This document shows, piece after piece, positions 6,133 through 36,973 of a stretch of DNA of 64,000 nucleotides. Under the pieces are notes generated by a model that ran no database searches, had not been told where the DNA came from, and was given only the letters and a program-made list of their open reading frames with translations. Source of the stretch: Saccharomonospora viridis DSM 43017 (GTDB taxonomy: Bacteria; Actinomycetota; Actinomycetes; Mycobacteriales; Pseudonocardiaceae); the NCBI RefSeq assembly GCF_000023865.1, contig NC_013159.1, positions 496,001-560,000 on the forward strand, written 5' to 3'. Within the stretch, counting starts at the first letter, position 1; each line of letters begins with the position of its first letter. Made by a program: the position numbers and the translations under genes.

Positions 6133-6154
6133 AAGGCTCCCTCCGGGACGAGGA

Positions 6155-6177
6155 CGTACAAGGACTTAGGTCGTACG
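6155..6177. promoter_or_regulatory. Possible operator upstream of the MFS gene
   Basis: An interrupted inverted repeat (CGTAC at 6155-6159, GTACG at 6173-6177) 22-45 bp upstream of the MFS start. The position suits a repressor site; no regulator gene is adjacent. The rest of 6180-6410 holds nothing I recognise. Confidence 0.3.
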
Positions 6178-6410
6178 AATGCTTGGGGGCGTTCGACTGG
6201 ATCTGACTGGATCGATCAAGAGCCGCGCCAAAAAAGAACGATAGACCCAGCAGGATTGATTCCAACTTCCGTGACCACGTCGTCGCTGGATCTATCTGCC
6301 GTCTAGTTCAACCGAAAAACGCCGACCTGTCATCCCGATTAGATGTGGCGCTCGTCACTATCCGGTTTGAGTTGGACGGGAAGCGGTTTCTGCAGGTCGT
6401 GTGCAGAAGA

Positions 6411-10678: not shown

Positions 10679-10748
10679 CCCACGCCACGGATGCCGCGTG
10701 GTTCAGCCCAGGGGCATTTCCGCGGCGAGTGAAGGTAGCCTGCCAGAC

Positions 10749-11546
10749 GTGCTCACCGTGTCGACCGTCAACGTCAACGGCCTGAGGGCCGCCGCCAAGA
10801 AGGGGTTCAGCGAGTGGTTCGAGGCCACATCGGCTGACGTCGTCGCGTGCCAGGAAGTGCGGGCCGATCCCGGTGTTCTGCCCGACGCCTTGCGGGAACC
10901 GCCGGGTTGGCACACCGTTCATGCCGCGTGCGCCACCAAGGGGCGTAACGGCGTGTGCCTCTACAGCCGCATCGAACCCGAGTCAGTGCGGGTCGGTTTC
11001 GGTGAGGCCGAGTTCGAGGACAGTGGCCGTTACGTCGAGATGTGGCTGCCCAGGGTGGTCGTGGGCAGTCTTTATCTGCCCAGTGGCGAGGTCGGCACGC
11101 CCCGGCAGGAGGAGAAGGAACGGTTCATGGACACCTTCCTGCCGTATCTGGCGACTTTGCGGGACAAGGCGTCGTCGGAGGGCAAGGAGGTCCTTGTCGT
11201 CGGTGACTGGAACATCGCCCATGCCGAGGTCGACCTGAAGAACTGGAAGGCCAACCGCAAGAATTCCGGCTTCCTGCCCGAGGAGCGCGCGTGGCTTTCC
11301 CGCGTGTTCGACGAACTCGGCTACGTCGACGTGCAGCGTCACCTCGACCCCGAGGGGCCCGGTCCGTACACGTGGTGGTCGTACCGGGGCAGGGCCTTCG
11401 ACAACGACGCCGGATGGCGGATCGACTACCAGATCGCCACTCCCGGTTTGGCGCAGCGGTGCACGTCGATGGTGGTGGAACGGGCCGAAAGTTATGACAA
11501 GCGGTGGAGCGATCACGCGCCGGTGACGGCGACGTACGAGATCTGA
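10749..11546 (+). CDS. xth: Exodeoxyribonuclease III (AP endonuclease family)
   Basis: A 265-residue enzyme of the Xth/exonuclease-endonuclease-phosphatase fold acting on abasic sites and 3' blocks in base-excision repair. The catalytic motifs are all present: NVNGLRAA, CQEVR with the metal-binding Glu, GDWNIAH, DYQIATPGL and the terminal WSDHAPV with the catalytic Asp-His. The start is placed at the GTG at 10749; the GTG at 10758 is also possible. It is the last clearly housekeeping gene before the defence island. 11547-11882 (336 bp) holds only the short purine-rich leader of pglW; I see no other gene there. Confidence 0.93.
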   Translation: MLTVSTVNVNGLRAAAKKGFSEWFEATSADVVACQEVRADPGVLPDALREPPGWHTVHAACATKGRNGVCLYSRIEPESVRVGFGEAEFEDSGRYVEMWLPRVVVGSLYLPSGEVGTPRQEEKERFMDTFLPYLATLRDKASSEGKEVLVVGDWNIAHAEVDLKNWKANRKNSGFLPEERAWLSRVFDELGYVDVQRHLDPEGPGPYTWWSYRGRAFDNDAGWRIDYQIATPGLAQRCTSMVVERAESYDKRWSDHAPVTATYEI

Positions 11547-11882: not shown

Positions 11883-14800
11883 ATGTCCCACGGCCGGAGA
11901 CCGATACCGAAGCCTGCACCGCCGCCCGCCCAGAAGCGGTGGTTCCAGGAGCGGCCGTCCCCGTATCCGTGGGAGCAGGATGGGCTAGACCACATCAAAC
12001 GGTTGATGCCGCAGGCGGAACCGTACCGAGCCTGGGCCACGTTCTCTTTCACCGCGGCCTCCGGTCGGATCAATGAGTGCGATCTGCTGATCGCGGTTCC
12101 CGGTGGGCTCTATCTGGTGGAGCTCAAAGGCCATACCGGGCGTGTGGTGAACAGCGGTGAGACGTGGAGTTTCTTCAGGGAGGGGGAAAAGCGGCCACGG
12201 AGGTTTCGCAATCCGCTGCATCTCACCGACCTGAAGTGCAAGGAACTCAAGCAGCGTTTGGAGTGGGCTGCCAAGCAGATCGGGTACAGCGGGCGGATAC
12301 CGTGGATCGAGCCGGCGATTTTCCTTTCCGCGCCCGGGTTGGTGTCGGAGCTCGACGAGGTGCAGCGCACCCGCGTGTACGGCCGTGACGAACAGGTCGA
12401 GGGGCTGGATTGGATTTGGCGTGACCTGTTGTCGCGTCCACCGCAGCGGGAGCAGCAGCGGGTCAGCCCGAAGTTCTCACAGCGGTTGCCGGAGCTGTTG
12501 AAGAAGATCGGCATTCGGGCTTCGACGGCGCACCTGCATTTCGGTGATGACTGGGTGCTCTCCGACGAGGTGCTGGACGCGGGGCCGACGTGGGAGGACC
12601 GTCTCGCCAAGCACGCGGGGCCGGTGCGCGATGAGGGTCGGGTCCGCATCTACCTCACCGAGCAGCAGGCCGTCGAGGAGCGGCGGCAGTCGGTGGAGCG
12701 GGCCGCGCGGCGTGAGTATCAGGTGTTGCAGGGCATCATTCACCGTGGCATCGCGCAGGCCATGCAGTTCCGGGAGCATCAAAGCGGTCCCGCGATCCTC
12801 TTCCGACACAATTCGTCGGATCTGCGGTTGGACTCCTATCTGGAAATCCATGGTGAACGGCTCAGCATCGAGACTCGGCTTGACTTGGTGCGACAGCTCG
12901 CCGAGGCCGTGCAGTACGCCCACCATCGCTCGCTCTACCACCGTGCCCTGTCGGCACGTTCGGTGTGGGTTGCGGCCAAAGAGGATGGCTCCGATCCGGT
13001 GTTGCGGATCACCGACTGGCAGGCCGCTGCCCGTGACTTCGATTCGACGTCGACGGCGACGGTGGGTAAGACGTCGTTGACCGGGGAACATTTGGCCAGT
13101 TCGGCGGAGGTGTACCTGGCACCGGAGTTCGCCCCACACGCCGATCCGGTGGACCTCGACGTCTTCGGCCTGGGCGCGGTGTCGTTCCTGATCCTGACCG
13201 GGCAGCCACCTGCCACACAGCGCAGCGGCCTCATCGAACGGTTGGCCGAAAGCCAGGGGCTGCATCCGTACGCGGTGTCGGACGGTATTTCCGATGCGCT
13301 CGACGCGTTGGTGTTCGACGCGACCCGTACGGATCTGTCACAGCGGTTGGAGTCGGCGGATGCCTTCCTCAAGCGCTTGGACGCGGCGGAGTGGGAGTCG
13401 CTGCCCGAGTCCTCGGTGCCGGTGGTCGATCCGCTCACCGTGTCGGCCGGGCAGATGGTGGATGAGCAGTGGCGTGTTGAGCGGGTGCTCGGCACCGGTG
13501 CCACGGCGCGGGCTTTGCTGGTCCGCAGGGTGGACACCGACGACGAACAGCCTGAGCGTCGGGTCCTCAAGGTCGCGCTCGACGAGGACAAGGCACAGCA
13601 CCTGCACGCGGAGGCCCGAGCCTTGGCGTTGGCGGGTGGCGGTGTGGTGGTGAAGCTGCTCGACGGTCCTCGTGAGCTCGGTGGTCGCACCGTGCTCGAC
13701 TTGGAGTACGCGGGTGGTCAGGACCCCCAGGGCTACACGTTGGGCGAGTTGTTGCGCGCTGAGGGCAAGCTCAGCTACCACAACTTGGAGCGTTATGGCC
13801 GCGACTTGTTCACCGCGTTGGATCAGCTCGCGGGCAAGGGCGTGCGTCATCGGGATCTGAAGCCGGACAACTTCGGCGTCTACCGCAGGGCTGATCGGTC
13901 GACGCAGTTGATGTTGTTCGACTTCTCGCTGGCCGAGGCGTCGGAGCGCGATGTCACGGCAGGCACACGCGGATATCTGGATCCCTTCCTGGGCACCAAT
14001 CGCCGTCCCGCCTACGACGATCACGCCGAGCGCTATGCGGCGGCGGTGACATTGCATGAGATGGCATCCGGTCAGCGACCGGTGTGGGGTGACGGGGTCA
14101 GTGATCCTCGCACGACCGGTGATGAGCTGCCCGTGCTCGCGGTCGAGCTGTTCGAGCCGGCGTTGCGTGACGGATTGACGGAGTTCTTCCAGCGTGCGCT
14201 GCATCGGGATGTCAATCGCCGGTTCGACACGTTGCGGCAGATGGAGGACGCCTGGCGCGAGGTGTTCACCGCGGCGGATACCGCCCAGCCACTCACCACT
14301 CCGGACACGGTGGGCATCGAAGGTAAGACGCTGGAGGAAGCCCGCGACTTCTACGCCGAGAAGGCGACCTTGGACACGCAGCTCGACGTGGCCGGGCTGA
14401 GCCCGCGCGCGGTGTCGTTGGCGCAGTCGCTTGGTGCTACGACGGTGCGGGAATTGTTGGAGCAGGTGCGGCCGTATGAGATCAGTCGAGCGCGCGGTGC
14501 GGGCAAGGTGGTGCGCAACGAGCTGAACCGCCGGTACAAGCAGTGGACGCGGGCGCTGTCGCTGCAGGACGAGCCTGACCGGCCGGCCCCGGAGGCCACG
14601 CCCGGTTTGTCCACTGTGGATGATTTTGTTGCGTGGTTGGTGCCGCAGAAGGCGCGGAGGGGTTCGCGCAAGGCCGATGTCGTGCGGTTGACGCTCGGGT
14701 TGCCGGAGGGGGACGACGATGAGCTACTGCGGTGGCCGACGCAGACCGAGGTCGCCCGGCGGCTGGAGATCACGCAGGGCACGGTGTCGCAGCATTACCG

Positions 14801-16229
14801 CGCGGCAGTGAAGGCGTGGGCGGCCGAGCCGTGGCTGTCGAGGGTGCGCGACGAGTTGGTGGAGCTGGTCGCCGAGGCGGGCCGGGTGATGACGGCGCAC
14901 GAGCTGGCGGCCGCGGTGAGAGCCAAGTACGGAGTCGCGGAGCCGGAGGCTCGAGAACGTGCCTTGGCGAGGTCGTTGGCGGTGGTGCGTGCGGCGGTGG
15001 ACACCGAGGCGTGGGAGCGGCAACAGGATGAGGACGAGGACGAGGAAGGCCCACGGTTCTCGGCGTTGCGGCGTGGCGATCACGTGTTGATTGCGTTGGA
15101 GTCTTTGCCGGGCACCGACGCACCGAGCGCTCCGGAGTTGGCTGACTACGCCGTGGCGTTGGGGGCGCGGGCCGATGAGCTGGTGGCCATGGACCCGCTT
15201 CCCGGCCGAGGCGTGGTGGTGCGGGAGTTGCGGGCGGTGCCGGCTCCGGAGGGGCTGCCCTCGCAGGCGGATACGCGTCTTGTGGAGTTGGCCGCGGTGA
15301 TGTCGCAGCGGGCGGCGGCGTCGGCGCGCGCGGAGCTGTATCCCCGGGAGTTGGATATGGTGCGCGCGCTGCGCATGTCGCAGGCCGCGGTGGGGGTGCG
15401 TCGTGAAACGGGGATCACGCGCGAAGCCCTGTTGGCGAAGGTGCGTGCGCGGTTCCCGGCCGTGGTGGTGGATGACCAGACCTCGGAAGTGCAGCTGGAG
15501 GAGGCGCTGCGCGCGGCGGGGACCCCGTTGGAATGGGATACGGAGACGAAGCGGTTCCGGCCGCCGGAACCGAAGTTCTCCCGTTCGGCCGTGTCGTCCA
15601 GTACGAGCCGAAGTGGTCACGGTCCGCTGTTCTCCGGTGGTGTGGACCCACGGGAGGTGTTGGGCGGGAAACTCGTCAGGGCGGGGGAGCACGGCGGGTT
15701 CTTGGCGTTGACGCTGCGGGGGGTGTATCTGCCGGGAGTCGCCGAGGCGTTGGCGTCGCGGTATGCGGTGCACCCGGTGCACGTGGACAGCGAGTTTGTG
15801 GCGACATTCCGTGAGTTGATCGCCGAGCGCGGCCAGGACTGGGAGCTGGTGCGCAGGTTGGACGCCGGCTTCGGGCGGACGGGGCTACCGAAGCCGGGTT
15901 TCCGCGAGTATGTGCGGAAGGTGTGGGAGCGGCTGCGGGACCGGTTGGTGGCGGTCGGGGGTGAACGCACGGTGCTGTTGCTGCACCATGCGGGTTTGGT
16001 GGGCCGCTATGCCGACCTGGGTGGGCGCGAGTTCTTGACAAGTTTGCAGCAGGCGGCCCGTTCAGCGAGCGCGAAGCCGCATGGTTTGTGGGTGTTGTGT
16101 CCGGGCGAGTCGGCGCGGGAAGCACCTCAGCTCGACGGTCTGCGTGTCGAAGCGTTGACGGAGTCGGAGCGGGTGGTGTTGGACAAGGATTTCCTGCGTG
16201 ATTTGCAGGTGGTTGATCAGGCGAGCTGA
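11883..16229 (+). CDS. pglW: BREX type 2 kinase PglW (NERD plus two kinase-like domains)
   Basis: A 1448-residue protein. Residues 35-150 form a NERD nuclease-related domain with D67, E80 and K82 in the expected pattern (ECDLL...VELKG). Residues about 270-500 look like a degenerate kinase: YHRALSARSVWV replaces the HRD loop and ITDWQ the DFG. Residues about 529-790 are a fuller Ser/Thr kinase with HRDLKPDN near 656 and DFS instead of DFG near 679. Around 950 there is a helix-turn-helix-like stretch (TQTEVARRLEITQGTVSQHY). PglW is the kinase of the phage-growth-limitation/BREX type 2 system. The start ATG has GGTGGCGGG upstream. Part of its last 70 bp is duplicated at 17568. It is separated from pglX by a cassette array. 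Confidence 0.92.
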   Translation: MSHGRRPIPKPAPPPAQKRWFQERPSPYPWEQDGLDHIKRLMPQAEPYRAWATFSFTAASGRINECDLLIAVPGGLYLVELKGHTGRVVNSGETWSFFREGEKRPRRFRNPLHLTDLKCKELKQRLEWAAKQIGYSGRIPWIEPAIFLSAPGLVSELDEVQRTRVYGRDEQVEGLDWIWRDLLSRPPQREQQRVSPKFSQRLPELLKKIGIRASTAHLHFGDDWVLSDEVLDAGPTWEDRLAKHAGPVRDEGRVRIYLTEQQAVEERRQSVERAARREYQVLQGIIHRGIAQAMQFREHQSGPAILFRHNSSDLRLDSYLEIHGERLSIETRLDLVRQLAEAVQYAHHRSLYHRALSARSVWVAAKEDGSDPVLRITDWQAAARDFDSTSTATVGKTSLTGEHLASSAEVYLAPEFAPHADPVDLDVFGLGAVSFLILTGQPPATQRSGLIERLAESQGLHPYAVSDGISDALDALVFDATRTDLSQRLESADAFLKRLDAAEWESLPESSVPVVDPLTVSAGQMVDEQWRVERVLGTGATARALLVRRVDTDDEQPERRVLKVALDEDKAQHLHAEARALALAGGGVVVKLLDGPRELGGRTVLDLEYAGGQDPQGYTLGELLRAEGKLSYHNLERYGRDLFTALDQLAGKGVRHRDLKPDNFGVYRRADRSTQLMLFDFSLAEASERDVTAGTRGYLDPFLGTNRRPAYDDHAERYAAAVTLHEMASGQRPVWGDGVSDPRTTGDELPVLAVELFEPALRDGLTEFFQRALHRDVNRRFDTLRQMEDAWREVFTAADTAQPLTTPDTVGIEGKTLEEARDFYAEKATLDTQLDVAGLSPRAVSLAQSLGATTVRELLEQVRPYEISRARGAGKVVRNELNRRYKQWTRALSLQDEPDRPAPEATPGLSTVDDFVAWLVPQKARRGSRKADVVRLTLGLPEGDDDELLRWPTQTEVARRLEITQGTVSQHYRAAVKAWAAEPWLSRVRDELVELVAEAGRVMTAHELAAAVRAKYGVAEPEARERALARSLAVVRAAVDTEAWERQQDEDEDEEGPRFSALRRGDHVLIALESLPGTDAPSAPELADYAVALGARADELVAMDPLPGRGVVVRELRAVPAPEGLPSQADTRLVELAAVMSQRAAASARAELYPRELDMVRALRMSQAAVGVRRETGITREALLAKVRARFPAVVVDDQTSEVQLEEALRAAGTPLEWDTETKRFRPPEPKFSRSAVSSSTSRSGHGPLFSGGVDPREVLGGKLVRAGEHGGFLALTLRGVYLPGVAEALASRYAVHPVHVDSEFVATFRELIAERGQDWELVRRLDAGFGRTGLPKPGFREYVRKVWERLRDRLVAVGGERTVLLLHHAGLVGRYADLGGREFLTSLQQAARSASAKPHGLWVLCPGESAREAPQLDGLRVEALTESERVVLDKDFLRDLQVVDQAS

Positions 16230-16540
16230 GTCGTTGTCACCGGTGTAATGCTGTGGGTGGTGTTTGGCTCTTCTCGCCCCGATGTGCCTGGTCCGCCCGA
16301 TGTGTCCTGAAGTCGAACGGTTCCACGACGTCGGCTTTGGGGGTAGTTGTGGCTGAGACCAGGGGCGGTGCTGGTGCGGCTCAGGGCGGCGGATTCTGGG
16401 AGGCGATCACGCCTCTGGGCTTCACGATGAATTCCCAGACGATGGATGAGGTGACTCGGTCGGCGGATCGGATGATCTCGTCGGCCAAGTCCGGCGGCTT
16501 CACGGTCACAAAAGAAGCCGCCGACCCGATCATCAAAGTG
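16161..16540 (+). repeat. Tandem duplication, upstream copy (pglW tail to cassette gene 1)
   Basis: This 380-bp stretch, beginning inside the last codons of pglW and ending inside the first small helical gene, is nearly repeated about 1407 bp downstream (17568-17947). Similarity stops abruptly after CATCAAAGTG in both copies. Confidence 0.85.
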
Positions 16541-16807
16541 CTAGAAGACTTCATCACGCGGATTCAGGAGATGAAAAACGAGCTGAACGTATTTAATCAA
16601 ATCCCTCCGCTCGGGGATCATGATTATGGAAAAAGAGTCGCACATTATATGGCTGATGCGGCAAATGATGATAGATCTGCGCGTGCCGCTATTGATTCTC
16701 TTGAGATAGTGTTAGAGAAAAGTCGAGAAGCCCTTCTCAGGGCATCGAACCAGTATCAAGAGAACGAAGAATCCACGAAGGATGTATTCAAGAGTTTGGG
16801 CGGCTGA
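16349..16807 (+). CDS. Small helical protein with YxxxE tail, cassette copy 1
   Basis: A 152-residue, mainly helical protein without a signal peptide. Residues 1-64 (FWEAITPLGFTMNSQTMDEV...KEAADPIIKVLE) are nearly identical to copy 2, while the rest has diverged. Near the C-terminus YQENE fits the general YxxxD/E type VII (ESX) secretion signal, so this may be a T7SS substrate; that is inference. I chose the GTG at 16349 because copy 2 has an ATG at the equivalent place. The lipoprotein gene follows after 6 bp. Not a family I can name. Confidence 0.65.
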   Translation: MAETRGGAGAAQGGGFWEAITPLGFTMNSQTMDEVTRSADRMISSAKSGGFTVTKEAADPIIKVLEDFITRIQEMKNELNVFNQIPPLGDHDYGKRVAHYMADAANDDRSARAAIDSLEIVLEKSREALLRASNQYQENEESTKDVFKSLGG

Positions 16808-16813
16808 TATTCT

Positions 16814-17392
16814 ATGGGGTTCAAAGTTGGTGCGCGGCTAGATGTGGCTGTCGCAGCGATGCTCATTGTTCTTGTTTCCGCATGCTCTGCGGAGCAATCT
16901 GGACATGCGGAGGCAACCTCTCAAGCAGTTCCAAGTGATTCCTCCAGCAGTATTCCGGCCACGGATGCGAGCCCATCCAGTCGGGTTAGTTTGTCGATTG
17001 ACCCTTGTGAGTTGCTTTCCGAAGAGGATCTTGCTGAAGTGGGAAAATTCGATACAAAATACCGGGAAGGCGGCGGGGCTCGTTCATGCTACTGGCGGCA
17101 TAGCTTCGAAAATGGAGGCGATGGGTTCACTTTTGTTGTCAGTGTGCGAGATGCGCAAAGTATTGAAACAGTGGTTGATGGTGGCGGGGGAGTTCATCGG
17201 GATGAAGTAAACCAGCGTCCGTCGGCGTGGACAGTGGATCCGAAATTTGATGACTGCACTTTCGCAATGAAAATCGATGAGATGTCGCGGGTCGATGTTA
17301 GTGTTGCTGGGGATAGCGACTCGAACGATTCATGCGAGGTCGCTAAGGTGATTGCAGGTATGATTGAACCTAACCTTCCTGAAATCCCTTAA
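16814..17392 (+). CDS. DUF3558-like lipoprotein, cassette copy 1
   Basis: A 192-residue lipoprotein. The signal peptide ends in the lipobox LVSAC (Cys near residue 24), followed by a Ser/Pro-rich linker and a compact domain from about residue 60 (IDPCELLSEEDLAEVGKF...ARSCYW...GFTFVVSVRDAQSIETV). The PCELLSxxDL opening and conserved Cys pattern match actinobacterial DUF3558 lipoproteins, whose role at the outer membrane face is unknown. Base composition is clearly AT-richer than the flanking BREX genes (for example GAAAATTCGATACAAAAT). It follows the helical gene with 6-bp spacing. Confidence 0.8.
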   Translation: MGFKVGARLDVAVAAMLIVLVSACSAEQSGHAEATSQAVPSDSSSSIPATDASPSSRVSLSIDPCELLSEEDLAEVGKFDTKYREGGGARSCYWRHSFENGGDGFTFVVSVRDAQSIETVVDGGGGVHRDEVNQRPSAWTVDPKFDDCTFAMKIDEMSRVDVSVAGDSDSNDSCEVAKVIAGMIEPNLPEIP

Positions 17393-17398
17393 TAGTGG

Positions 17399-17452
17399 AT
17401 ATCCGAGATAATCACGGGTATGGTCGAATCTCGTTTGCCCGAGGTTCCGTGG
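17399..17452 (+). pseudogene. Fragment of a further lipoprotein 3' end
   Basis: The frame reads IITGMVESRLPEVPW, matching the lipoprotein C-terminus VIAGMIEPNLPEIP that ends only a few bp upstream. It is a remnant of an additional cassette copy. Confidence 0.6.
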
Positions 17453-17465
17453 TTTTCCATCTCTC

Positions 17466-17545
17466 TCAGCTTTCTGTCTGTCCTCTGTATCCCGGCAAGC
17501 CGTATGTCCGTGCTACGGCGGTTTCGATGCCGTAGCAGTTCGTGT
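17466..17545 (-). pseudogene. Remnant of the convergent small gene, copy 1
   Basis: The minus-strand frame reads YGIETAVARTYGLPGY and stops at 17466. It matches HDIETAVALVYDLPGY of the intact gene at 19582-20043. Only the C-terminal coding part survives. Confidence 0.65.
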
Positions 17546-17567
17546 CGTCGTGTTTGGCGGTGGTGCG

Positions 17568-17947
17568 GAGTCGGAGCGGGTGGTGTTGGACAGTGGTTTC
17601 CTGCGTGATTTGCAGGTGGTTGATCGGGTGAGCTGAGTCGTTGTTGCCGGTGTAGTGCTGGGGGTGGTGTTTGGCTCTTCTCGCCCCGATGTGCCTGGCC
17701 CGCCGATACACTCCGGAGCCGAACGGTTCCACGACGTCGGCTTTGGGGGTCAATCATGGATGGGGCCAGGGACGGTGCTGGTGCGGCTCAGAGCGGCGGG
17801 TTGTGGGAGGCGATCACGTCTCTGGGCTTCACGATGAATTCCCAGACGATGGATGAGGTGACTCGGTCGGCGGATCGGATGATCTCGTCGGCCAAGTCCG
17901 GCGGCTTCACGGTCACAAAAGAAGCCGCCGACCCGATCATCAAAGTG
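17568..17947 (+). repeat. Tandem duplication, downstream copy
   Basis: The near-identical second copy of 16161-16540. It begins with a duplicated piece of the pglW 3' end (codons for ESERVVLD, then DLQVVD and a stop at the same place), runs through the spacer, and includes the start of helical gene 2. The rest of 17393-17755 holds the two remnants listed above. Confidence 0.85.
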
Positions 17948-18223
17948 TTGGAGCACTTTATCGACGAGATCAAAATCATGGACAGGAAGCTCGTCGCATT
18001 CGAACAGGCCCCGCCTCTTGGTGGCCACGATTATGGGCTGTTGGTTGCTGAGCATATGCAGGAAGCAGCAAATGATGATCGGTCGCCTCGGGCAGCATTA
18101 CAGCAGTTACAGATAGTGTTGGAGAGAAGTCGCGACGCCTTGCGTGTGGCGTCGGGCCAGTACCAAGAACAGGAAGAATCGGTGCGGGATTCGCTCCGTG
18201 GTATGGGATCTGAGGAAGTATGA
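17756..18223 (+). CDS. Small helical protein with YxxxE tail, cassette copy 2
   Basis: A 155-residue paralogue of the gene at 16349. The first 64 residues are almost the same (LWEAITSLGFTMNSQTMDEV...KEAADPIIKVLE); the middle differs (HFIDEIKIMDRKLVAFEQAPPLGGHDYGLLVAEHMQEA in two blocks), and similarity returns at the end (NDDRSPRA...ASGQYQEQEES). YQEQE again fits the YxxxD/E type VII signal. It starts at the ATG at 17756 and its stop overlaps the ATG of the next lipoprotein by 4 nt, so the pair is translationally coupled. Confidence 0.68.
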   Translation: MDGARDGAGAAQSGGLWEAITSLGFTMNSQTMDEVTRSADRMISSAKSGGFTVTKEAADPIIKVLEHFIDEIKIMDRKLVAFEQAPPLGGHDYGLLVAEHMQEAANDDRSPRAALQQLQIVLERSRDALRVASGQYQEQEESVRDSLRGMGSEEV

Positions 18224-18789
18224 TCGCGGAAAAGAAAATCCTAGTGGTCCTCGGCTCGGTTCTGTTAATTGGGGTTGCTAGTTGCTCCAGTGAAGAGTCA
18301 GGAGTTGCCGAACTTCAACACTCGGAGCTCCCAATGGCAAGCGAATCCGGTTCATCGAACGAGACTTCAGCTGCTCCCGTGAGTCAGTCAATCGAGCCTT
18401 GTGAACTGCTCTCAGTCAATGACCTGGTTGGGTATGGCGACTTCAATGAAGGTGAATATGAGGAGGTTGGGGAAGCGCGGACTTGCTATTGGCAACTCAG
18501 TAGTAAGGGCGGCGTAGAGGGGTTCATCGTCTCGTTGAATGTTAGAGATTCTCAGAGTGTTGATTCGGTGAATGATGTCGGCGGCGGGATTGACGAATAT
18601 GAAGTCGATGGCCGGGCAGCAGCGCGAGTGGCGAATCCTCGGTTTGGTGATTGTACAATCGCTCTTGCGGTTGATTCTCAATCTCGTGTTGATGTTGTCG
18701 TCAACGGGTTGTCAAGTGTGGACGAATCGTGTCCGATTGCTGAGGACGTTGCCGGTTTGGTTGAGCCTCACTTACCTGAGATTCCGTGA
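18220..18789 (+). CDS. DUF3558-like lipoprotein, cassette copy 2
   Basis: A 189-residue lipoprotein with a basic N-terminus (MIAEKKILVVLGSVLLIG), lipobox VASC, an acidic/Ser linker and the DUF3558-like domain (IEPCELLSVNDLVGYGDF...ARTCYWQ...CTIALAVDSQSRVDV). It is more diverged from copies 1 and 3 than those are from each other. AT-rich composition and AAA/AAT codons contrast with neighbouring pgl genes. The ATGA overlap couples it to the helical protein upstream. Confidence 0.8.
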   Translation: MIAEKKILVVLGSVLLIGVASCSSEESGVAELQHSELPMASESGSSNETSAAPVSQSIEPCELLSVNDLVGYGDFNEGEYEEVGEARTCYWQLSSKGGVEGFIVSLNVRDSQSVDSVNDVGGGIDEYEVDGRAAARVANPRFGDCTIALAVDSQSRVDVVVNGLSSVDESCPIAEDVAGLVEPHLPEIP

Positions 18790-18923
18790 TCTTTCTGCTG
18801 CTGCATTGCCTCGCTGTAGCCCGGTAAGTCGGACGCCCTTGCTGCTGTGGTCTCGATGCCATGGGTGTGCAGGCCTGCGTGTTCGGCGATGGTGAAGCCG
18901 AGTTCGAGTAGTCGAATCGCTCC
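18768..18923 (-). pseudogene. Remnant of the convergent small gene, copy 2
   Basis: The minus-strand frame reads AIRLLELGFTIAEHAGLHTH then GIETTAARASDLPGYSE...KDHGISGK with its stop at 18768. It closely matches the C-terminal third of the intact gene at 19582-20043. The 5' two-thirds are missing, and the break joins directly to a fragment of a helical gene. Confidence 0.75.
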
Positions 18924-19028
18924 AGATAGTGCTCAGGAAAAGTCGAGAAGCCCTGTTGGGAGGCATCGAATCAGTATCAAGAGCAGGAAGAGTCGGTGCA
19001 GGATGTCTTCCGAGGTATGGATGATTGA
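18922..19028 (+). pseudogene. 3' fragment of a third helical cassette gene, frameshifted
   Basis: It reads IVLRKSREALL, then after a one-base insertion ASNQYQEQEESVQDVFRGM with a stop at 19026-19028, matching the C-terminus of copies 1 and 2. The N-terminal 110 or so residues are gone, so lipoprotein 3 has lost its partner. Confidence 0.75.
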
Positions 19029-19033
19029 TATTC

Positions 19034-19603
19034 ATGAAAGCCAAAATTAATGCGCGAGCAGGTGTGGCAGCAAGTGCTTTGATTTTGCTTGTAACGTCTG
19101 GCTGTTCAGGTAAAGAGCAGGGATACGCGCAACCTCAAGGCTCGTCGAATGGCTCTTCGATTGATATCCAAACGACAGTTCCTGCCCCCTCGAATCCAAT
19201 TAGCTCCTCGCTTGAGCCGTGTGACCTGCTTTCGGCGAAGGACCTAGCCGAGGCTGGAAAGTTTAAAACGAAATACAAAGAGCAAGGTGGAGCTCGTTCG
19301 TGTTACTGGCAGAGTGACTTCGAGCAAGGTGGGGACGGGTTCACCTTTGCTGTGAGTTTGCGGGACGCGCAAAGTGTGGACACACTGAACGACCTCGGTG
19401 CCGGCGTTCAGCGAACTGAGGTGAACCAGCGTCCGGCGGCGGTGTCGAAGAACGCGGAGTTCCGCAGTTGCACGGTCGCGATGAAGCTTGACGACGTGTC
19501 ACGTGTTGATGTGTCAGTCCCACGTACTGAGGAGGACGACGCTTGCGAGATCGCGGAGGTGATCGCTGGTTTGGTCGAGCCTCACTTGCCTGAGATTCCG
19601 TGA
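19034..19603 (+). CDS. DUF3558-like lipoprotein, cassette copy 3
   Basis: A 189-residue lipoprotein closest to copy 1 (LEPCDLLSAKDLAEAGKFKT and ARSCYWQSDFEQGGDGF). Signal peptide ASALILLVTSGC ends in the lipobox. The ATG at 19034 is preferred over the TTG at 19025. Its 3' end overlaps the convergent gene by 22 bp. GC content rises toward the 3' end, back to the genomic norm. Confidence 0.8.
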   Translation: MKAKINARAGVAASALILLVTSGCSGKEQGYAQPQGSSNGSSIDIQTTVPAPSNPISSSLEPCDLLSAKDLAEAGKFKTKYKEQGGARSCYWQSDFEQGGDGFTFAVSLRDAQSVDTLNDLGAGVQRTEVNQRPAAVSKNAEFRSCTVAMKLDDVSRVDVSVPRTEEDDACEIAEVIAGLVEPHLPEIP

Positions 19604-20043
19604 TCTTTCCGGTGCTGCGGTGCCTCGTCACCGTAACCCGGCAGGTCGTATACCAGCGCTACTGCGGTTTCGATGTCGTGAATGTGCAGGCCTGCGTGTT
19701 CGGCGATGGTGAAGCCGAGTTCGAGTAGGCGGAAGGCGATGGCGCGCAGTGCTGGGGTGGCGTTGGGGTGTCCGGCGTCCTGGTGGTGGTAGAGCCCTTC
19801 CGTTTCGGTGTCGATGGCTCTGGTGATGCGCAGTAGTGCGGCCGGGAGGTCATGGTGGGCTGGGGGTCGCTGGGCGCGGATCGTCGCGGCCTCGGCTGCG
19901 TGGAGGCGGGGGATCTTGACGCTGGGGCAGGTGGCCGCTGCTAGGAGGATGGCCGCTCGCTCGATGTCGCGTTCGTGGACCAGGACCCGCCTGATGGTGT
20001 CGACCTGCTCTCGGGTCGGCGGGACGTAGGTTGCGGTGTTCAT
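19582..20043 (-). CDS. Conserved small helical protein, intact third cassette element
   Basis: A 153-residue soluble, alpha-helical protein (MNTATYVPPTREQVDTIRRV...AIAFRLLELGFTIAEHAGLH...LVYDLPGYGDE). Two shorter remnants of its 3' end occur after lipoproteins 1 and 2, so it was once part of the repeated unit. The start is the ATG at 20043; the longer frame from 20070 lacks support. I do not recognise the family. It converges with, and overlaps, lipoprotein 3. Confidence 0.65.
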   Translation of the reverse strand: MNTATYVPPTREQVDTIRRVLVHERDIERAAILLAAATCPSVKIPRLHAAEAATIRAQRPPAHHDLPAALLRITRAIDTETEGLYHHQDAGHPNATPALRAIAFRLLELGFTIAEHAGLHIHDIETAVALVYDLPGYGDEAPQHRKDHGISGK

Positions 20044-20087: not shown

Positions 20088-20556
20088 CTATGGCACGGGG
20101 TTCGGGGAGTGCGCCGGCTGTGGCGCGCGAGGTCGGCCACGGCCTCCCCGGCGGCCCTCACAGCGCGCGTGTCGTCGGGGGCGGCGTCGGCGAGGTGGGC
20201 GAGCGCGCCGATGGTCTGCTGGATACGCCGTCGCAGCGAGTCGCCTTCGGGCAGGGCGATGCCGGGGTGGCCTGCGGGGCGGCACGTTTCGAGGATGCCT
20301 CGCCCCGGTCGTGCAGATCCTTCAGCGCGCCGCTCGTGCGCTCGCACATCTCCGCGAGCACCTCTTCCAACGCCTCCCACTGCCAGTGCGGCAATGCCGT
20401 GGGATTGCGGCAGCACGTGCTGAGCGCGGCATCGTCGATCTCGGCCGCACGGATGTGCAGGTCCGCCGCGAGACCGGCGAGACGGTCGGCCAGCGCGCAC
20501 AACCCTTCGGCGGGCAACTCCCCGCCGTCCTGGCGGTGCAACAACTCGACCACCAC
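20088..20556 (-). pseudogene. Probably frameshifted helical protein gene
   Basis: From a GTG at 20556 the frame is plausible for about 85 residues (MVVELLHRQDGGELPAEG...HWQWEALEEVLAEMCERTSG...DLHDRGE) and then becomes low-complexity. The adjacent frame takes over with credible coding sequence (GILETCRPAGHPGIALPEGD, SLRRRIQQTIGALAHLADAA). A single-base indel near 20300 would join them. Without a homologue I cannot be sure where it ended; 20088 is the first stop in the third frame. It may once have been co-transcribed with the gene at 19582. Confidence 0.45.
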
Positions 20557-20856: not shown

Positions 20857-21173
20857 CACGCGCGGTCGGCCATGCTCGATGCCATCCACCTACCTGACGG
20901 TATTCGGGGCGGAAACGGGGGCCCTCTGCAGCTACGTGCCGAGACGTCTCGATACGGGTTGAGTGGAGTCGAGTCGGTGCAGCGACAAGTGAATGCGGCG
21001 AACATGCGCCTCAGCGCCCGCCAGTAGCATCACACTCAGTAATCGCGATCTTACGTTGCAAGGTTTGGGTAGCGACTGCGTTGCGATGTGGTCGTTGGTT
21101 GCCGTGGCCACACATCTCGCTACTAGCATCGCCGGGGTGTCGGTTGGCCGGGTGAGTGAGGGGAGCGGCGTCG

Positions 21174-24100
21174 GTGGCAGTGCGTGGGGCTGACCTGGGT
21201 GAGCTGGTGAAGGACCTGCGCAGGCAGGTCACCGTGCTCGAAGACGATCTGCGGGCGCGGGCCCAGGAGGTGCCGGAGTTCCACACCCCGCTGCGCGCCG
21301 AGTACGACGAGGCGTACAAGCGGGAGCGCACGGCGGCGACGTGGGAGTCGTGGCTTGATCAGCGGGTGACGCAGGTGGCTGCGGCGTGGGTGTTGGGCAC
21401 GGTGTTCGTGCGGTTCTGTGAGGACAACGGGCTGATCCAGTGGCCGTTCATCGCGGGGCCGGGGGAGCGGTTGGTTGACGCGGAGGAGCGGCACGAGGCG
21501 TATTTCCGCGAGCACCCGCAGGACAACGACCGTGATTGGATCGTCGCGGCCTTCAATCACCTGTCGGAGGCGCACCCGACGGCGGCGGGGCTGTTCGACG
21601 CGCGGTTCAACCCGCTGTGGGAGATCACGCCGTCGTTCGAGGCGGCCACCGAGCTGTTGCAGTTCTGGCGGCGGCGCGGCGACGACGGTGAGATCCGCTA
21701 CGACTTCACCGACCCCGAATGGGACACACGCTTCCTCGGTGACCTGTATCAGGATTTGTCCGAACACGCACGCAAGACGTATGCGCTGCTGCAGACGCCG
21801 GAGTTCGTGGAGGAGTTCATCCTCGACCTCACCCTCGAACCGGCCGTCGAGGAGTTCGGCCTGGCAGACCTGCGCACGATCGACCCGGCGTGCGGGTCGG
21901 GGCACTTCCTGCTTGGCCTTTTCCGCCGGATTCTGACCAAGTGGCGGGAGGTCGAGCCGGGCACGGATCAGTGGGAGCTGATCCAGCGCACACTCGCCTC
22001 GGTGCACGGCTGCGACAAGAACCCGTTCGCTGTTTCCATCGCCCGGTTCCGGATGCTCGTGGCGGTGCTGCGCGAGGCGAACGCGATGCGGCTGGACCAG
22101 GCCCCGCAGTTCCCGATCAACATCGCGGTGGGCGACTCGCTCATGCACGGCCGTGGCGCGCCCGGCATCCAGGGCGAGCTGTTCGCGCTGGACGAGCCGC
22201 ACACCTACACCACCGAGGACGTCAACGAGTACGTGCGCTCCTGCGACCTGCTTGGTAAGGGCTCGTACCACGTGGTGGTGGGCAACCCGCCGTACATCAC
22301 GGTCAAGGACAAGCAGGAGAACAAGAACTACCGCGACCGGTATGACGCGTGTTCGGGAACGTATGCGTTGTCGGTGCCGTTCGCGCAGCGGCTGTTCCAG
22401 CTCGCGATTCGTAGGGACGGATCTGAGCGCGACGCGGGGTACGTCGGCCAGATCACCGCGAACTCGTTCATGAAGCGTGAGTTCGGGAAGAAACTGATTG
22501 AGCAATTCTTCAAAACGGTCAACCTGACACACGTCATCGACACGTCGGGTGCGTACATCCCAGGGCACGGCACGCCGACGGTGATTCTGGTGGGGCGGAA
22601 CCACAGCTACCGGCAGGATGAGCCGGTCCGGGCTGTGTTGGGTGTGCGTGGGGAGCCGAGCCAACCTGAAGATCCGTCGAAGGGGCTGGTGTGGTCGGCC
22701 ATCGTCGAGCAACTGTGCGAACCTGGCAGTGAATCAGAGTGGGTTGCTGTTGATGATCTCGAAAGAGCTCGATTTTCTGTCTTCCCGTGGTCGTTAAGCG
22801 GCGGGGGTGCTGCTCCGCTTTTCGAGGACATTGATCAGCATCCGGTTAAACTCGGTGACCGAGTGAAAAGTATAGGTCGCACTACGGCTACCGGGGCAGA
22901 CGATGTTTTTCTGTTACCCGAGCGAAAAGTGGCGGAGAGGCTGGGGTTCTCTGAAAGTGTGCGAACACTAATTGTTGGTGATTCTGTTCGTGACTTTCGC
23001 GTCTCAGGGGCTGTGTACGTTTACAGTCCTTATAGCGATTTTTCTAATGAGTCCGTTGTTGATGCGGACAGCTCGTTGGTTACGCATCTCCTTTGGCCGT
23101 TCCGGCATGTACTGAGTCGGCGCGTAATTTTTGGTAAAGGCCTCCAGGAGTCAGGGAGTCCCTGGTATGTTCACTTGGAGAACTACCCAAGTAAGTTGAA
23201 GGTGCGTTGCGGAATCGGGTTCGCCTTTGTTGCGACACATAATCATTTTGTTCTGGATCGCCAAGGTTTTCTATTTAATCGTACTGCGCCGGTGATCAAG
23301 TTGCCGGAGGAGGCTGGTGAGGACGAGCATCTGGAGTTGCTTGGGGTGCTCAACTCGTCCACGGCCTGCTTCTGGCTCAAGCAGGTGTGCCACAACAAGG
23401 GCAATGGTGCGGACAGCAAGGGGGCGCGTACGACGGCTGTACCGTGGGAGGACTTCTACGAGTTCACCGGCACCAAGCTTCAGGAGTTCCCCCTGCCTGC
23501 CGTACTGCCGTTGGACCTCGGCCGGGCACTGGATTCGCTGGCCCAGGACCTCGCCGCGCACGAGCCGTCGGCCGTCGCCGAGGCAAGCACGCCGACTCGC
23601 GCGCGGCTTGACGCCGCTCGCGCTGAGCACACGCGGATTCGGGGGCGGATGATCGCGCTTCAGGAGGAACTCGACTGGACCGTCTACCACTCCTACGGCC
23701 TGCTCGACGACGCCGAACGTGCCCGGCTCACCGCGCCCGACCTCGACACCGTGCCGGAAATCCGGCTCGGCGAGCGGGCGTTCGAGATCGTGCTCGCCCG
23801 CAAGATGGCCGCCGGAGAAGCGGAGACGGCGTGGTTCGAGCGGCACGGGTCCACGCCCGTCACCGAGATCCCCGCGCACTGGCCCGACTGGTACCGGCAA
23901 ATCGTCCAAGCGCGCATCGACGTCATCGAAAAGCGCCGCGACATCGGCCTCATCGAGCGGCCCGAGTGCAAGCGGCGGTGGGCCTCCGAGACGTGGGAGC
24001 GCAAGGAAGCCGACGCGCTGCGCACGTGGCTGCTCGACCGGTGTGAGCGGCGAGACCTCTGGTTCGGGCTGCGTGACGGGTTCTCCCAGCCCCGCACGCT

Positions 24101-24809
24101 CACCGTCAACCAGCTCGCCGATCAGTTCCGTGACGACGCCGACATGCACGCCGTCGCCGCCCTCTACGCCAGCGACCACCTCGGCAAACCCGACCTGCCG
24201 CTCGCGCGCGTACTCGAAACGATCATCGCCGACCAGCACGTCCCCTACCTCGCCGCCCTGCGCTACAAGGACAGCGGCCTGCGCAAACGCGCCCAGTGGG
24301 AGCAGGTGTGGGAGAAGCAGCGGGAAGAAGACCGCACGGGCCAGCGGCTCGACATCCCCGTGCCTCCGAAATACACGTCCGCCGACTTCCGCAAAACCAG
24401 CTACTGGACCCACCGCGGCAAACTCGACGTCCCCAAGGAGAGGTTCATCTCCTACCCCGACGCCTCACCCGACGCCGACCCCAGCCTGCTGCTCGGCTGG
24501 GCCGGCTGGGACCACAAAGACCAAGCCCAAGCCCTGGTCAACCTCATCAACGACCGCACCGCCGACGCCGGGTGGGAAACCGAACGGCTCACCCCGCTCC
24601 TCGCCGGCCTGGCCGAAGTGATGCCCTGGGTGCGGCAATGGCACGGCGAATACGACGAGGAATGGGAAGGCGTCCCCGCCGACGAATACCAAGCCTTCCT
24701 CGACGAACAACGCACCAAACACCAGCTCACCGAAGACGACCTCAAAAACTGGCGACCCGCCCCCACCCGTCGGGGCCGCCGCGGCACAGCGAAGGAAACC
24801 CAGCAGTGA
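21174..24809 (+). CDS. pglX: BREX type 2 adenine-specific DNA methyltransferase PglX
   Basis: A 1211-residue methyltransferase. SAM-binding motif I is [14 protein letters not shown] at about residue 239; catalytic motif IV is NPPY near 371 ([13 protein letters not shown]). Residues about 520-705 form the expected target recognition domain, and the C-terminal 500 residues are helical. In BREX, PglX methylates the host recognition site and is needed for phage exclusion. I chose the GTG at 21174, which has GAGGGGAG 6-8 nt upstream; the GTG at 21156 is in frame. DNA over the recognition domain is AT-richer than both flanks. Its stop overlaps the pglY GTG. Confidence 0.93.
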
Positions 24810-27800
24810 GCACGAACGAGGTGTACCTGCGCGACGTCCTCGACATCCCCGAATCCGTCCACGCCGGGGACTTCAAAGTCGAACTCACCGGAGGCTTCAC
24901 CCAAGTCGAAGCCCGCGTCGCCGAATACGTCGTCACCGACCAACTCCGGCAAGCCTTCGACAAAGCCCTGTCCATCGTGCGCGCCGCCGTGCGCGACGGC
25001 ACCTCGCACGCCGCCTACCTGCACGGCTCGTTCGGCTCCGGTAAAAGCCACTTCCTCACCGTGCTGCACGCCGTGCTCAACAACCACCCCGCGGCACGGG
25101 CCAAACCCGGCCTGCAACCCGTCATCGCCGACCACGACGACTGGCTGCGCGGCAAGAAATTCCTCATGGTGCCCTACCACCTCGTAGGCGCCACCGACCT
25201 CGACTCCGCCATCCTCGGCGGCTACGTCAACACCGTCCGCTCACTGCACCCCGACCAGCCCACCCCGCCCGTCTACCGGGCGGACGCCATGCTCGACGAC
25301 GCCCGCCGCTACCGTGAAGCCAGAGGCGATGACGCATTCGTCGACTGGCTCAGCATCGGCGCCACCACGCCCGTCCCAGGCACACCCGACGAGGACGACG
25401 ACCTCGACCTCGACATACCCGACGACACCGGCATCAACGACACCGGATGGACCAGCGAACAACTCGACCGGGCATTCACCGCACCCGCCGGCGACCCGGT
25501 TCGCGACCGGCTCGTCCAAGCCCTGCTGTCCGGTCCCATGTCCTCCTACATCCGCGGGGCCAGCGGCGACGCCGAAGCGTTCCTCCCCCTGGAGAACGGG
25601 CTGTCGATCATCACCAAACACGCCCGGGACCTCGGCTACGACGGGCTGATCCTCTTCCTCGACGAACTGATCCTGTGGTTGCAGGCCCACATGAGCGACC
25701 GCCAGTTCGTCAACAACCAGGTCAGCAAACTCGTCAAACTCATCGAATCCGGCGACGCCGGCCGAGTGCTGCCCATCATCTCGTTCATCTCCCGGCAGCG
25801 CGATCTGTCCAAACTCGTCGGTGAGGACGTCACCGGCGCCGAGGTCAAAGAGCTCGAACGGCAGGTCGAATACCTCGCCGGGCGGTTCGACACCGTGCCC
25901 TTAGAAGACAGCAACCTGCCCGCCATCATCAAAGAACGCGTCCTCAAACCCAAACCCGGCGGCCGGGAGATCCTCGACGCCGCGTTCGCCGGCATCGAAT
26001 CGGCCAAACAAGCCGTCCGCGACGTGCTGCTCGACGCGGACGGAGCCACCGGCGCCGACTGGCAGGACTTCCGCGACGTCTACCCGCTCTCACCCGCCCT
26101 GCTCAACGTGCTCATGGCGTTGTCCGGTGCACTACAACGTGAACGCACCGGGCTGAAACTGCTGCAGGAGATGCTGCGCCGCCGCCGCGACGACATGAAA
26201 GTCGGCGAACTCATCCCCCTCGGCGACCTGTGGGACGTGCTCGCCGACGGCATCGGCGAAGCCTTCACCGACCGGCTACGCCGTGAGGCCGAAGCCGCCC
26301 AACGCTTCTACACCAAAGCCCGCGCCTGGCTGGTCGAACGCCACGGTGGTGAGCACACCCAACAGTTCCGCGCCACCGACCGACTCGTCAAAACGCTGAT
26401 CCTCGCCGCGCTCGCGCCGCAGGTGTCCGCACTCACCCGGCTCACCGGCAGCCGACTCGCCGCACTCAACCACGGGTCGCTACGCGCCCGCACCGTTTCG
26501 GCCGGCTCGCTCGCCGTCACCAGGCTGCGCGAACTCCAGGCCGAATTCGGCGAACTACGCCACGAAGGCGACGAGGACCCCGTCTTCCGGCTGCAACTGT
26601 CCGACCTGGACGTCGAACCGTACCTCGACGCGGTCGGCGAACAGGACACCCCCGGCGCGCGCCGCATCTGGATCAGAAAACAGCTGTGGAGCCAGTTGGG
26701 GGTCAACGACACCGACGACTTCGTGTCGGAAAAAGAGATCGTCTGGAAGGGCACCCGGCGCACCGCCGAATTCGTGTTCGCCAACGTGCGCGACGAACGT
26801 GAACTGCCCGACGTGCAGTTCATGCCCAGCACCCCCGGCCGTATCCGGTTCATCCTCGACTACCCGTTCGACGGCTCCGGCGACTACACACCCCGGCACG
26901 ATGCCGAACGCATCCACCGGATGCGCCGCGACGACATCACCGCGGCCACCATCGTGTGGTTGCCGCACTTCTTCTCCGCGCAGAAATCCGCCCAGCTCGG
27001 ACGCCTTCTGAAGATCAAATACCTGCTGGAGCGCGACCGGCTCGACGACTACGTCAGAAACCGCTCCGCCGACGAACGGGTCAAGATCCGCCACCAGCTC
27101 GAAGCGCAATGCGACACCCTGGAAAACCAGCTCGCCGCCGCGCTGCGTCAGCTCTACGGCATCGCCGGCGGCGACGACACCACCGTCGGCGCGCCCGTCG
27201 GCGAAGACGGACACGTGATGTCGCTGTACCCCGACCACAAGCCCAGACTGGCCGGTGGTGCGGGATTCGAATACAACGCGTTGACCCTGGCCGACGGGTT
27301 GTTCGACAAGCTCTACCCGAAGCATCCGAACTTCGACCCCACCGGCAACCGCAAGGCCATCACCCTCGGCGAACTGCGCACGGTCCTCGACTGGATCACC
27401 AAGGCCATGGAGGACGGCAGCCGACGAGTGGTGGTGGACCGCAACCACCTCGCCCTCGTGCGCAAGATCGTCCACCCGTTGGAGCTCGGTGAGGTCAGCG
27501 ACGGACCGCTCAACGTCTCCGCCGAATGGCGACGCCGCATCGAACAAGCCGCCACCCAACACGGGGTGACCGGCGACCTGCGTGTGGAAGACATCCGCTC
27601 GTGGATCGCCGACCTCGGCTACACCGGGCTCGACAAACCCGTGGTCAACCTCATCATCGCCACCTACGCGATGCTGGCCGACCGCACCTGGACCCTGCAC
27701 GGCAGCGTGCTGCGGCAACCACCCGAACTCGACAAGATCGGACCGGGTCACGCCCTGCGGGCCCAGCAACTGCCCGACGCCGCCGAGTTCGCCACCGCCC

Positions 27801-28663
27801 GAGACCGAGCCGCCGTGCTGTTCGGAATCGTCGTGCCCGACACCCTGTTCGCCCGCAACGTCAGCCGGCTCGCCGAAGGTGTGCGCGCCAAGGTCGCGGA
27901 ACTGGAGACACCGGTCAACGGGGTGCGACGGATGTTGGAACGGCACGCCGACACACTCGGTCTCACCCACCGGCCCGACGCGCCGAGAGTGGTCGCCACT
28001 CGGGACGCGGCCGACCTGCTCGCCCGGCTGTCCGGTGCCGCCGAGGACACCGATCTGGTGAACCGGCTCGCGAAAGCCACCTACGGTACCAACGACACCG
28101 TGCTCGCCGCCACCATGGCGGCCGCTCCCCGGTTGCTCGAGTCGTTACGCGACGTCGAATGGTCGCTGGTGTCGTCCGTGCAAGGCTTCGCAGGCAGGGG
28201 CGACCTCATCGGCAACCGCGCCGACGCGCTGCTCGACGAAGTCGGACACGCCGCCGCCGAGGACGAGTTCGCCGTCTCGCTCGCGCCCGTGCTCGAACAA
28301 CTCCAATCCAAAGCCGTGGCCTTGGTCAGCGATGCGGCCCGACTCACCGCCGTGGCCACTCCTGGCCCCGTCAGTCCCGTCCGCACGGACACGGAGAACA
28401 CATCGAGCGGACAGGCCGCCGGAGCCGACACGGTGAGTCTCACCGACACCGGGCAGCCCGGTATCAGCCGCCACGAACCTGAACCCTCGGCCACCCCGTC
28501 CCATCGCGCACCGCGCCGCCTGCGGGCCAGTGCCGCGGAACGCGACCTCGCCGCGCTGCTCGAGGGCGTGCGTGACGAGATCCGCGACTACGCCCGTGAA
28601 CACCCCGGAGCGGAGATCGAGATCCTGTGGCGGACGGTCGGGGGAGAGGACAACGCGGAATGA
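24806..28663 (+). CDS. pglY: BREX type 2 ATPase PglY
   Basis: A 1285-residue P-loop protein, the type 2 counterpart of BrxC. Walker A is [11 protein letters not shown] near residue 73-83 and Walker B is [12 protein letters not shown] near 282-293. Length and position between pglX and pglZ agree with PglY. The C-terminal 80 residues form a Ser/Thr/Pro-rich linker followed by a short basic-acidic helix. The GTG start overlaps the pglX stop by 4 nt, and the stop overlaps the pglZ ATG by 4 nt. Confidence 0.93.
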
Positions 28664-31365: not shown

Positions 31366-31393
31366 AGTTGGTAACTCTTCTGGAGGTGGTGGG

Positions 31394-36900: not shown

Positions 36901-36973
36901 GTGCTGGCTCGCTTCCGCTCTCCTGTGTGAGCTCCCGGTGGCCGTCACATCACCCGAACACGGAGGTTCGACG

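Follow-up and report, generated by a model that had tools for sequence, protein, structure and literature searches.

In the mycobacterial type VII (ESX) secretion systems described in PMC5311947, a C-terminal YxxxD/E motif is a general export signal of substrates, and EspG chaperones recognize PE/PPE substrates. In Staphylococcus aureus, according to the account in PMC10730906, the lipoprotein TilA neutralizes a type VII toxin, export of a Staphylococcus type VII toxin depends on two small helical proteins, and TilA homologues vary in tandem copy number on an island where restriction endonucleases are encoded too. For esaG and tipC, strings of non-identical immunity genes are reported to recombine via conserved blocks (PMC9484751). 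Here, we compare these systems with an array of small helical-protein genes, DUF3558 lipoprotein genes, and minus-strand third genes that lies between pglW and pglX of a bacteriophage exclusion (BREX) type 2 locus in Saccharomonospora viridis DSM 43017. The array was analyzed within a 64,000-nucleotide stretch (NC_013159.1, positions 496,001 to 560,000; hereafter the window, whose coordinates are used throughout). We lean toward the view that it is a birth-and-death repertoire of type VII partner/DUF3558 lipoprotein pairs, which are common in the Pseudonocardiaceae, in an insertion slot where BREX is the neighbor.

The array resembles the TilA cassettes and the esaG/tipC strings in layout. As in the TslA-TlaA1-TlaA2-TilA cassettes of PMC10730906, small helical partners are encoded with lipoproteins, in variable tandem copies, near restriction or defense genes, and the window lipoprotein genes share the trait of being variable, tandem, non-identical, and recombining. 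Unlike the cassettes as portrayed there, the array has no toxin gene that we could see, its lipoproteins belong to DUF3558 and not DUF576, its host is of the ESX type, and neutralization by its lipoproteins is hypothetical. Like the esaG/tipC strings of PMC9484751, it consists of non-identical tandem paralogues recombining through conserved blocks, whereas its own conserved block is the tail of pglW plus the front of a helical gene, and each window lipoprotein gene is accompanied by a helical gene or stub. The mycobacterial PE/PPE operons with EspG in PMC5311947 offer a possible further parallel: a small helical protein ends in YxxxD/E, EspG and PPE-like genes stand by paralogous pairs, and the ESX gene for EccB was found above cut-off in 12/12 genomes of the genus. 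In contrast to those operons as the source describes them, the helical protein here is unrecognized as PE or EspC, a DUF3558 gene lies beside it at 30/30 places, and the pairs at the BREX site lack a PPE-like gene. The host locus is a complete example of the BREX type 2 (Pgl) system of PMC12839542 (PglW, X, Y, Z, BrxD, and BrxHI), and the words lipoprotein, DUF3558, and type VII are absent from the main text of that source.

Paired genes and their probable type VII context

The 4.9-kb gap between pglW (11883..16229, plus strand; PADLOC PglW, 1755.7 bits) and pglX holds three units, two near-full and one degraded. Unit 1 consists of helical gene 1 (16349..16807, plus strand; start codon inferred; C-terminal YQENE), lipoprotein gene 1 (16814..17392, plus strand; DUF3558 E-value 2.7e-19; lipobox-like VSAC), and a minus-strand remnant of the third gene at about 17405..17565, which has 67.9% DNA identity to 19556-19711. 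The same elements recur in unit 2 as helical gene 2 (17756..18223, plus strand; C-terminal YQEQE), lipoprotein gene 2 (18220..18789, plus strand; DUF3558 E-value 2.6e-16), and a minus-strand remnant of 51 residues at 75% (18771..18920). In unit 3, a frameshifted stub of the C-terminal part of the helical gene (18914..19033, plus strand) precedes an intact lipoprotein gene 3 (19034..19603, plus strand; DUF3558 E-value 8.4e-19) and an intact third gene on the minus strand (19582..20043; 153 aa), which had no family match above cut-off. The three lipoproteins scored 70.2, 60.5, and 68.6 bits against DUF3558 (PF12079; Pfam cut-off, 34.1), and a lipobox-like pattern is present in 3/3. An earlier note, made from this DNA alone, had proposed both the array and this make-up of its units, and it is borne out by repeats beyond chance and by the Pfam matches.

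The helical family is widespread, occurring in 124/200 family genomes and 32/46 genera. A DUF3558 lipoprotein gene adjoins the helical gene at 30/30 genus places with loci (L013-L042, from the 50 rows listed), such that the two are paired at every genus place examined, and a PPE-like gene lies downstream within the 1.5-kb flank at seven of the 30. At 156-159 kb in the window genome, pairs lie downstream of an EspG gene (E-value 8.1e-66) and adjoin PPE-like genes. EspG adjoins helical paralogues in L011 and L303, and it stands beside a DUF3558 gene in control region L301 as well. Among 24 aligned helical proteins, 22 end in YxxxE/D, and the two that do not (L068 and L059) are frames cut by a stop. 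These EspG and PPE-like neighbors, together with the C-terminal motif, make a link to type VII secretion likely. That the helical protein works like a PE partner is suggested by its neighbors, motif, and predicted helices, and not by family membership.

In the mechanism that we propose, the helical protein, PE/EspC-like and bearing a C-terminal YxxxE signal, would be exported by ESX, with its PPE-like partner probably encoded elsewhere. The DUF3558 lipoprotein would sit on the membrane's outer face and could bind the exported helical protein or its cargo. Diversified tandem lipoproteins would then form a repertoire, perhaps acting like type VII lipoprotein immunity arrays.

Turnover of the array

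Comparison of the array with itself aligned 16159-16773 with 17566-18180 (E-value 1.5e-163). DNA identity between units 1 and 2 is 84-96% up to about 16548 and 46-65% beyond that point, which gives a mosaic. The recombination block is present as copy 1 (16159..16555, plus strand), spanning the 3' end of pglW, a spacer, and the 5' part of helical gene 1, and as copy 2 (17566..17962, plus strand), with a spacer and the 5' part of helical gene 2. Because the repeat starts inside the 3' end of pglW (16159), copy 2 opens with a dead copy of the pglW tail (17566-17704). Simple tandem duplication of whole units was set aside, since lipoproteins 1 and 2 share only 43% of their residues against 84-96% identity in the 5' block; lipoproteins 1 and 3 share 54%.

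In the lipoprotein tree, lipoprotein 3 groups with the lipoprotein of G009 (support 99/98), lipoprotein 2 with one from another site in G007 (94/85), and lipoprotein 1 with the lipoprotein of G001 (92/83), and only the first of these groupings reaches the tree tool's mark for strong support. The window helical genes 1 and 2 group with each other (98/99), as expected from copied front halves. Taken with the copied 5' block, the lipoprotein groupings across species suggest that old lipoprotein lineages were kept or lost and that the block on their 5' side was copied over. Such copying seems to have occurred more than once, since a 253-bp stretch right behind pglW is repeated at 93% in G003, with end points that differ from those in the window. 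Overall, the sequences show that recombination within a block extending into the 3' end of pglW turns the array over.

Repeated duplication and loss, as the earlier note had it, is also visible in a comparison of copy numbers between genomes. Helical and lipoprotein gene counts between pglW and pglX are one and one in G001, one and two in G002, two and two in G003, one and two in G011, and two and three in the window.

Separately, G002 and G003 (L055 9614-12500 versus L056 11154-13941) are 96-99% identical from the last lipoprotein gene into pglX and 92% identical across the pglW end and the helical gene, which suggests recent exchange between the two species.

Pairs with and without BREX, and the pglW-pglX slot

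A PglW match was found in 8/12 genus genomes searched, with full-length pglW of the window type in five. All five have pairs between pglW and pglX, and in G011 an additional helical-lipoprotein pair lies upstream (L057:13648-14683), such that pglW is flanked on both sides. The pglW of G010 is at a contig end, where its junction with pglX is not visible, and the pglW matches of G004 and G005 are broken or split, with none of these pairs beside them. Pairs are also present without BREX: G007, which gave no PglW match at the search threshold, has a pglW 3' remnant and then two helical-lipoprotein-third units at the same site, and G009, also without a PglW match, has the gene order exoIII, helical gene, lipoprotein, amylase. 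In both genomes, the exoIII-type gene is the left neighbor of the pairs, as it is of the window locus. A tree of the flanking amylase places G009 as sister of BREX-bearing G001 (99/98) and G007 as sister of G000 plus G010 (80/88), and the simplest reading would be that BREX was lost twice while the pairs stayed. The idea that the pairs were resident before BREX was dropped, since in G004, G005, G006, and G008 the 16-19 kb next to the amylase gene showed neither the exoIII gene nor a pair and so give no order of events.

Among the helical copies listed for 11 genus genomes (n = 52), eight adjoin pglW, three lie at the same site without BREX, and 41 are elsewhere. Since the pairs are widespread in related genomes and were kept where BREX appears to have been lost, the array is more likely a neighbor of BREX than a part of it. 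Ratios of nonsynonymous to synonymous divergence (dN/dS) for the pair genes are 0.07-0.34 where computable, and 0.11-0.21 in the five computable comparisons involving the BREX-less G007 or G009; dS was saturated in a sixth comparison with a BREX-less species and in one with another G007 copy.

In wider samples, which overlap and differ in queries and thresholds, PglW was found in 39/200 family, 22/298 order, and 26/345 class genomes, and regions were fetched for matches outside the genus (33 family, 13 order, and 25 class). A search for relatives with a PglW alignment latched onto kinase motifs, and most of its matches were weak and lay outside PglW. The distance between pglW and pglX exceeds 700 bp at 32/73 measured loci outside the clade (L138 is a repeat of L102, and in genus member G005, L064 carries a second PglW, of a different type), with a maximum of 13.9 kb; the junction is therefore a frequent insertion slot. 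Within the family outside the genus, it exceeds 700 bp at 9/30 measured loci. Pfam was run on 150/178 open reading frames in the gaps, 28 pglW/pglX pieces and short frames having been dropped. Among the 25 of 182 families listed, the commonest were HTH_3, HTH_31, DUF5753, AAA_21/AbiEii-type, and other AAA domains, with GmrSD and AbiEi_4 found three times each.

The helical protein, which the earlier note had proposed to look for next to pglW in other BREX type 2 loci, did not recur there. Its profile gave one match, to a PE-type protein (E-value 0.09), in 84 fetched pglW regions outside the clade, a few of which cover parts of one locus, and tblastn of other pglW regions returned one weak fragment only (L221:1910-2095 in G369; 34%, 35 bits). 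That fragment, from an order-level genome, lies upstream of pglW and was missed by the profile.

Other type VII genes do occur near pglW. In G118, a distant BREX type 2 locus has PE (E-value 2e-11), DUF3558, and PPE genes in its pglW-pglX gap (L119:8497-10773), which make up a type VII module of their own in this slot. A PE-type protein and two DUF3558 genes, one of them broken, are encoded just upstream of pglX on the opposite strand in G004 (L235:483-2370); DUF3558, PPE-like (below cut-off), and EspG genes lie directly upstream of pglW on the same strand in G175 (L127:15304-18082); and the slot of G028 holds a WXG100-like gene below cut-off. Enrichment of DUF3558 near pglW is not supported at a profile threshold of E <= 0.001: matches were found in 2/33 non-genus family pglW regions (618 kb) versus 3/20 control regions (398 kb), evenly spaced and taken from five pglW-bearing genomes, and this control rate, three per 398 kb, marks DUF3558 genes as frequent in the family. 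One further pglW locus with DUF3558 comes from G004, which belongs to the genus but not to the clade, and the best matches in 47 order, class, and other pglW regions had E-values of 0.02 and 0.1. Within the pglW-pglX gap alone (about 52.5 kb), two events (G118 and G004) stand against about 0.40 expected at the density of the controls, an excess that is suggestive at most (Poisson P of about 0.06).

Alternative explanations and neighboring genes

The earlier note had cast the cassette as an accessory or decoy of BREX type 2, kept by selection for phage defense. Its presence between pglW and pglX in every genus genome with a full window-type pglW, on the pglW strand and in variable copy number, would fit such a role. 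The role is nevertheless very improbable, given that the pairs persist in G007 and G009, that most listed genus copies lie elsewhere, that the helical family was not found at the other BREX type 2 loci searched, that pglW and pglX are within 700 bp of each other at 21/30 measured family loci outside the genus, and that PADLOC gave no match for helical protein 2, lipoprotein 1, or the third or fourth protein. The cassette is largely what that note itself had named as speaking against its proposal, namely common away from BREX and not enriched near pglW. Alternatively, the pairs may themselves be defense-island genes independent of BREX, such as surface lipoproteins that interfere with the adsorption of phages or the entry of their DNA. 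All four inspected variable two-gene sites adjoin defense genes: besides the BREX site, the pair at L068 (G001, 4.57 Mb) adjoins partial type I-E cas genes, that at L069 (G001, 4.59 Mb) a DrmMI/type IIG-like gene (E-value 1.7e-67), and that at L067 RmrA (E-value 1.8e-112), ten proteins having been scanned with PADLOC at these three sites. Controls are poor in such matches, with at most a few of 104 proteins from 14/20 control regions at 1e-20 (RecD-type, one filed under CRISPR type IV, PDC-S68, and PDC-M16A models, one protein per model). However, these sites were assessed in hindsight, from part of the copies (L011, L012, L059, L061, L063, L065-L073, L302-L306, and the BREX site), L068 and L069 are only 26 kb apart in one genome, and plastic regions are rich in defense genes anyway. 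Other pairs lie in EspG-PPE-like operons or at species-shared sites without evident defense genes (L070-L073, L302, L304, L059, L305, and L306; two proteins were scanned with PADLOC at L070), where they adjoin acyl-CoA dehydrogenase and gltB-like genes or MarR and permease genes (the gltB-like, MarR, and permease names were read from sequence). We regard this explanation as improbable, and a looser link of the pairs to defense islands as possible.

A neutral origin, in which the pairs are passengers, the duplicated and decaying leftovers of a type VII substrate operon in an insertion slot, is likewise unlikely. It would account for the missing PPE-like gene, the third-gene remnants, the helical stub of unit 3, and the second lipoprotein of G002, which lacks a lipobox. 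The array helical and lipoprotein genes also have a third-position GC content (GC3) of 0.45-0.65, and pglW, pglX, and both flanking genes one of 0.81-0.87. Against such neutrality, dN/dS between species is well below 1 where computable, the array retains six complete reading frames, and GC3 is low to middling (0.47-0.87) in pairs at other sites too.

Several observations also weigh against the type VII repertoire that we prefer as an explanation. Pfam rejects the helical protein, with EspC (PF10824) at 13.1 bits versus a cut-off of 23.5 and PE (PF00934) unmatched, and comparing the family profile with a genuine PE protein yielded a probability of 0.9%. Operon partners score 18.3 and 22.8 bits against PPE (cut-off, 26), a third partner (L303) has no match, and the window array itself showed no PPE-like gene. 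Structure prediction is of little help: the helical model shows helices at low confidence, and mean predicted local distance difference test (pLDDT) values are 60.5 for the helical protein, at which a Foldseek search is meaningless, and 73.5 for the lipoprotein. Neither model matched the PDB at E <= 0.001, the lipoprotein model bears a weak likeness to the PsbP fold (2xb3; probability 0.93, template modeling score 0.33, E-value 0.022), and PDB sequence searches with the helical and lipoprotein profiles gave weak matches only (best E-values, 0.018 and 0.21). The species tree comes from one gene, with the placement of G007 only fairly supported, and dS was saturated in 3/17 comparisons, lacked a value in one more, and exceeded 1 in several others. 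Three variable sites besides BREX touch defense genes, and the neighborhood of pglW again holds type VII genes in G118, G004, G175, and G028 (below cut-off in the last). Finally, the pglW-pglX gap of the window showed no candidate toxin gene, so immunity is put forward as a hypothesis only.

It is rather doubtful that the pairs represent an actinobacterial (ESX/T7SSa) version of the polymorphic type VII immunity arrays, with helical export partners and a diversifying set of DUF3558 lipoproteins, carried and exchanged on defense islands (BREX, CRISPR, type IIG, and RmrA). In that case, inter-bacterial immunity and phage immunity would share the same recombining slots. For the DUF3558 family, which a full-text search of one collection of papers matched only in a mouse Polycomb study, close linkage to a helical protein ending in YxxxE, and the EspG and PPE-like genes near some copies, provide a testable role. 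More generally, lying within a BREX locus does not by itself make a gene part of BREX, and the openness of the pglW-pglX junction to insertions in many lineages calls for caution where defense function is inferred by neighborhood.

The remainder of the window locus follows the array on the plus strand. PADLOC identified pglX (21156..24809), pglY/brxC (24464..28663; true start uncertain, probably further in), pglZ (28627..31362), brxD (31358..32713), and brxHI (32713..34818). Together with pglW, they make up a complete BREX type 2 locus, and the assignment in the earlier note is therefore right. The flanking genes, on the left an exonuclease III-type gene (10734..11546, plus strand) and on the right an amylase-type gene (36938..38410, plus strand), were named from sequence, without a family call.

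Among the variable sites, L068:3957-7831 holds partial Cas7e, Cas6e, and Cas1e, the last of which continues into a phage-capsid match below cut-off, and the helical frame of its pair is cut by a stop. The L069 island also holds a DUF3558 gene (5601-6377) and an AAA_11 helicase. In one correction to the earlier note, a fourth gene on the minus strand (20158..20556), apparently frameshifted, adjoins the third gene in the window and in related species also. The third and fourth genes, without a family match above cut-off, occur together without pairs inside the pglW-pglX gap of G086 (L097), and they stand together without pairs or pgl genes nearby in G005 and G006 (L262 and L263).

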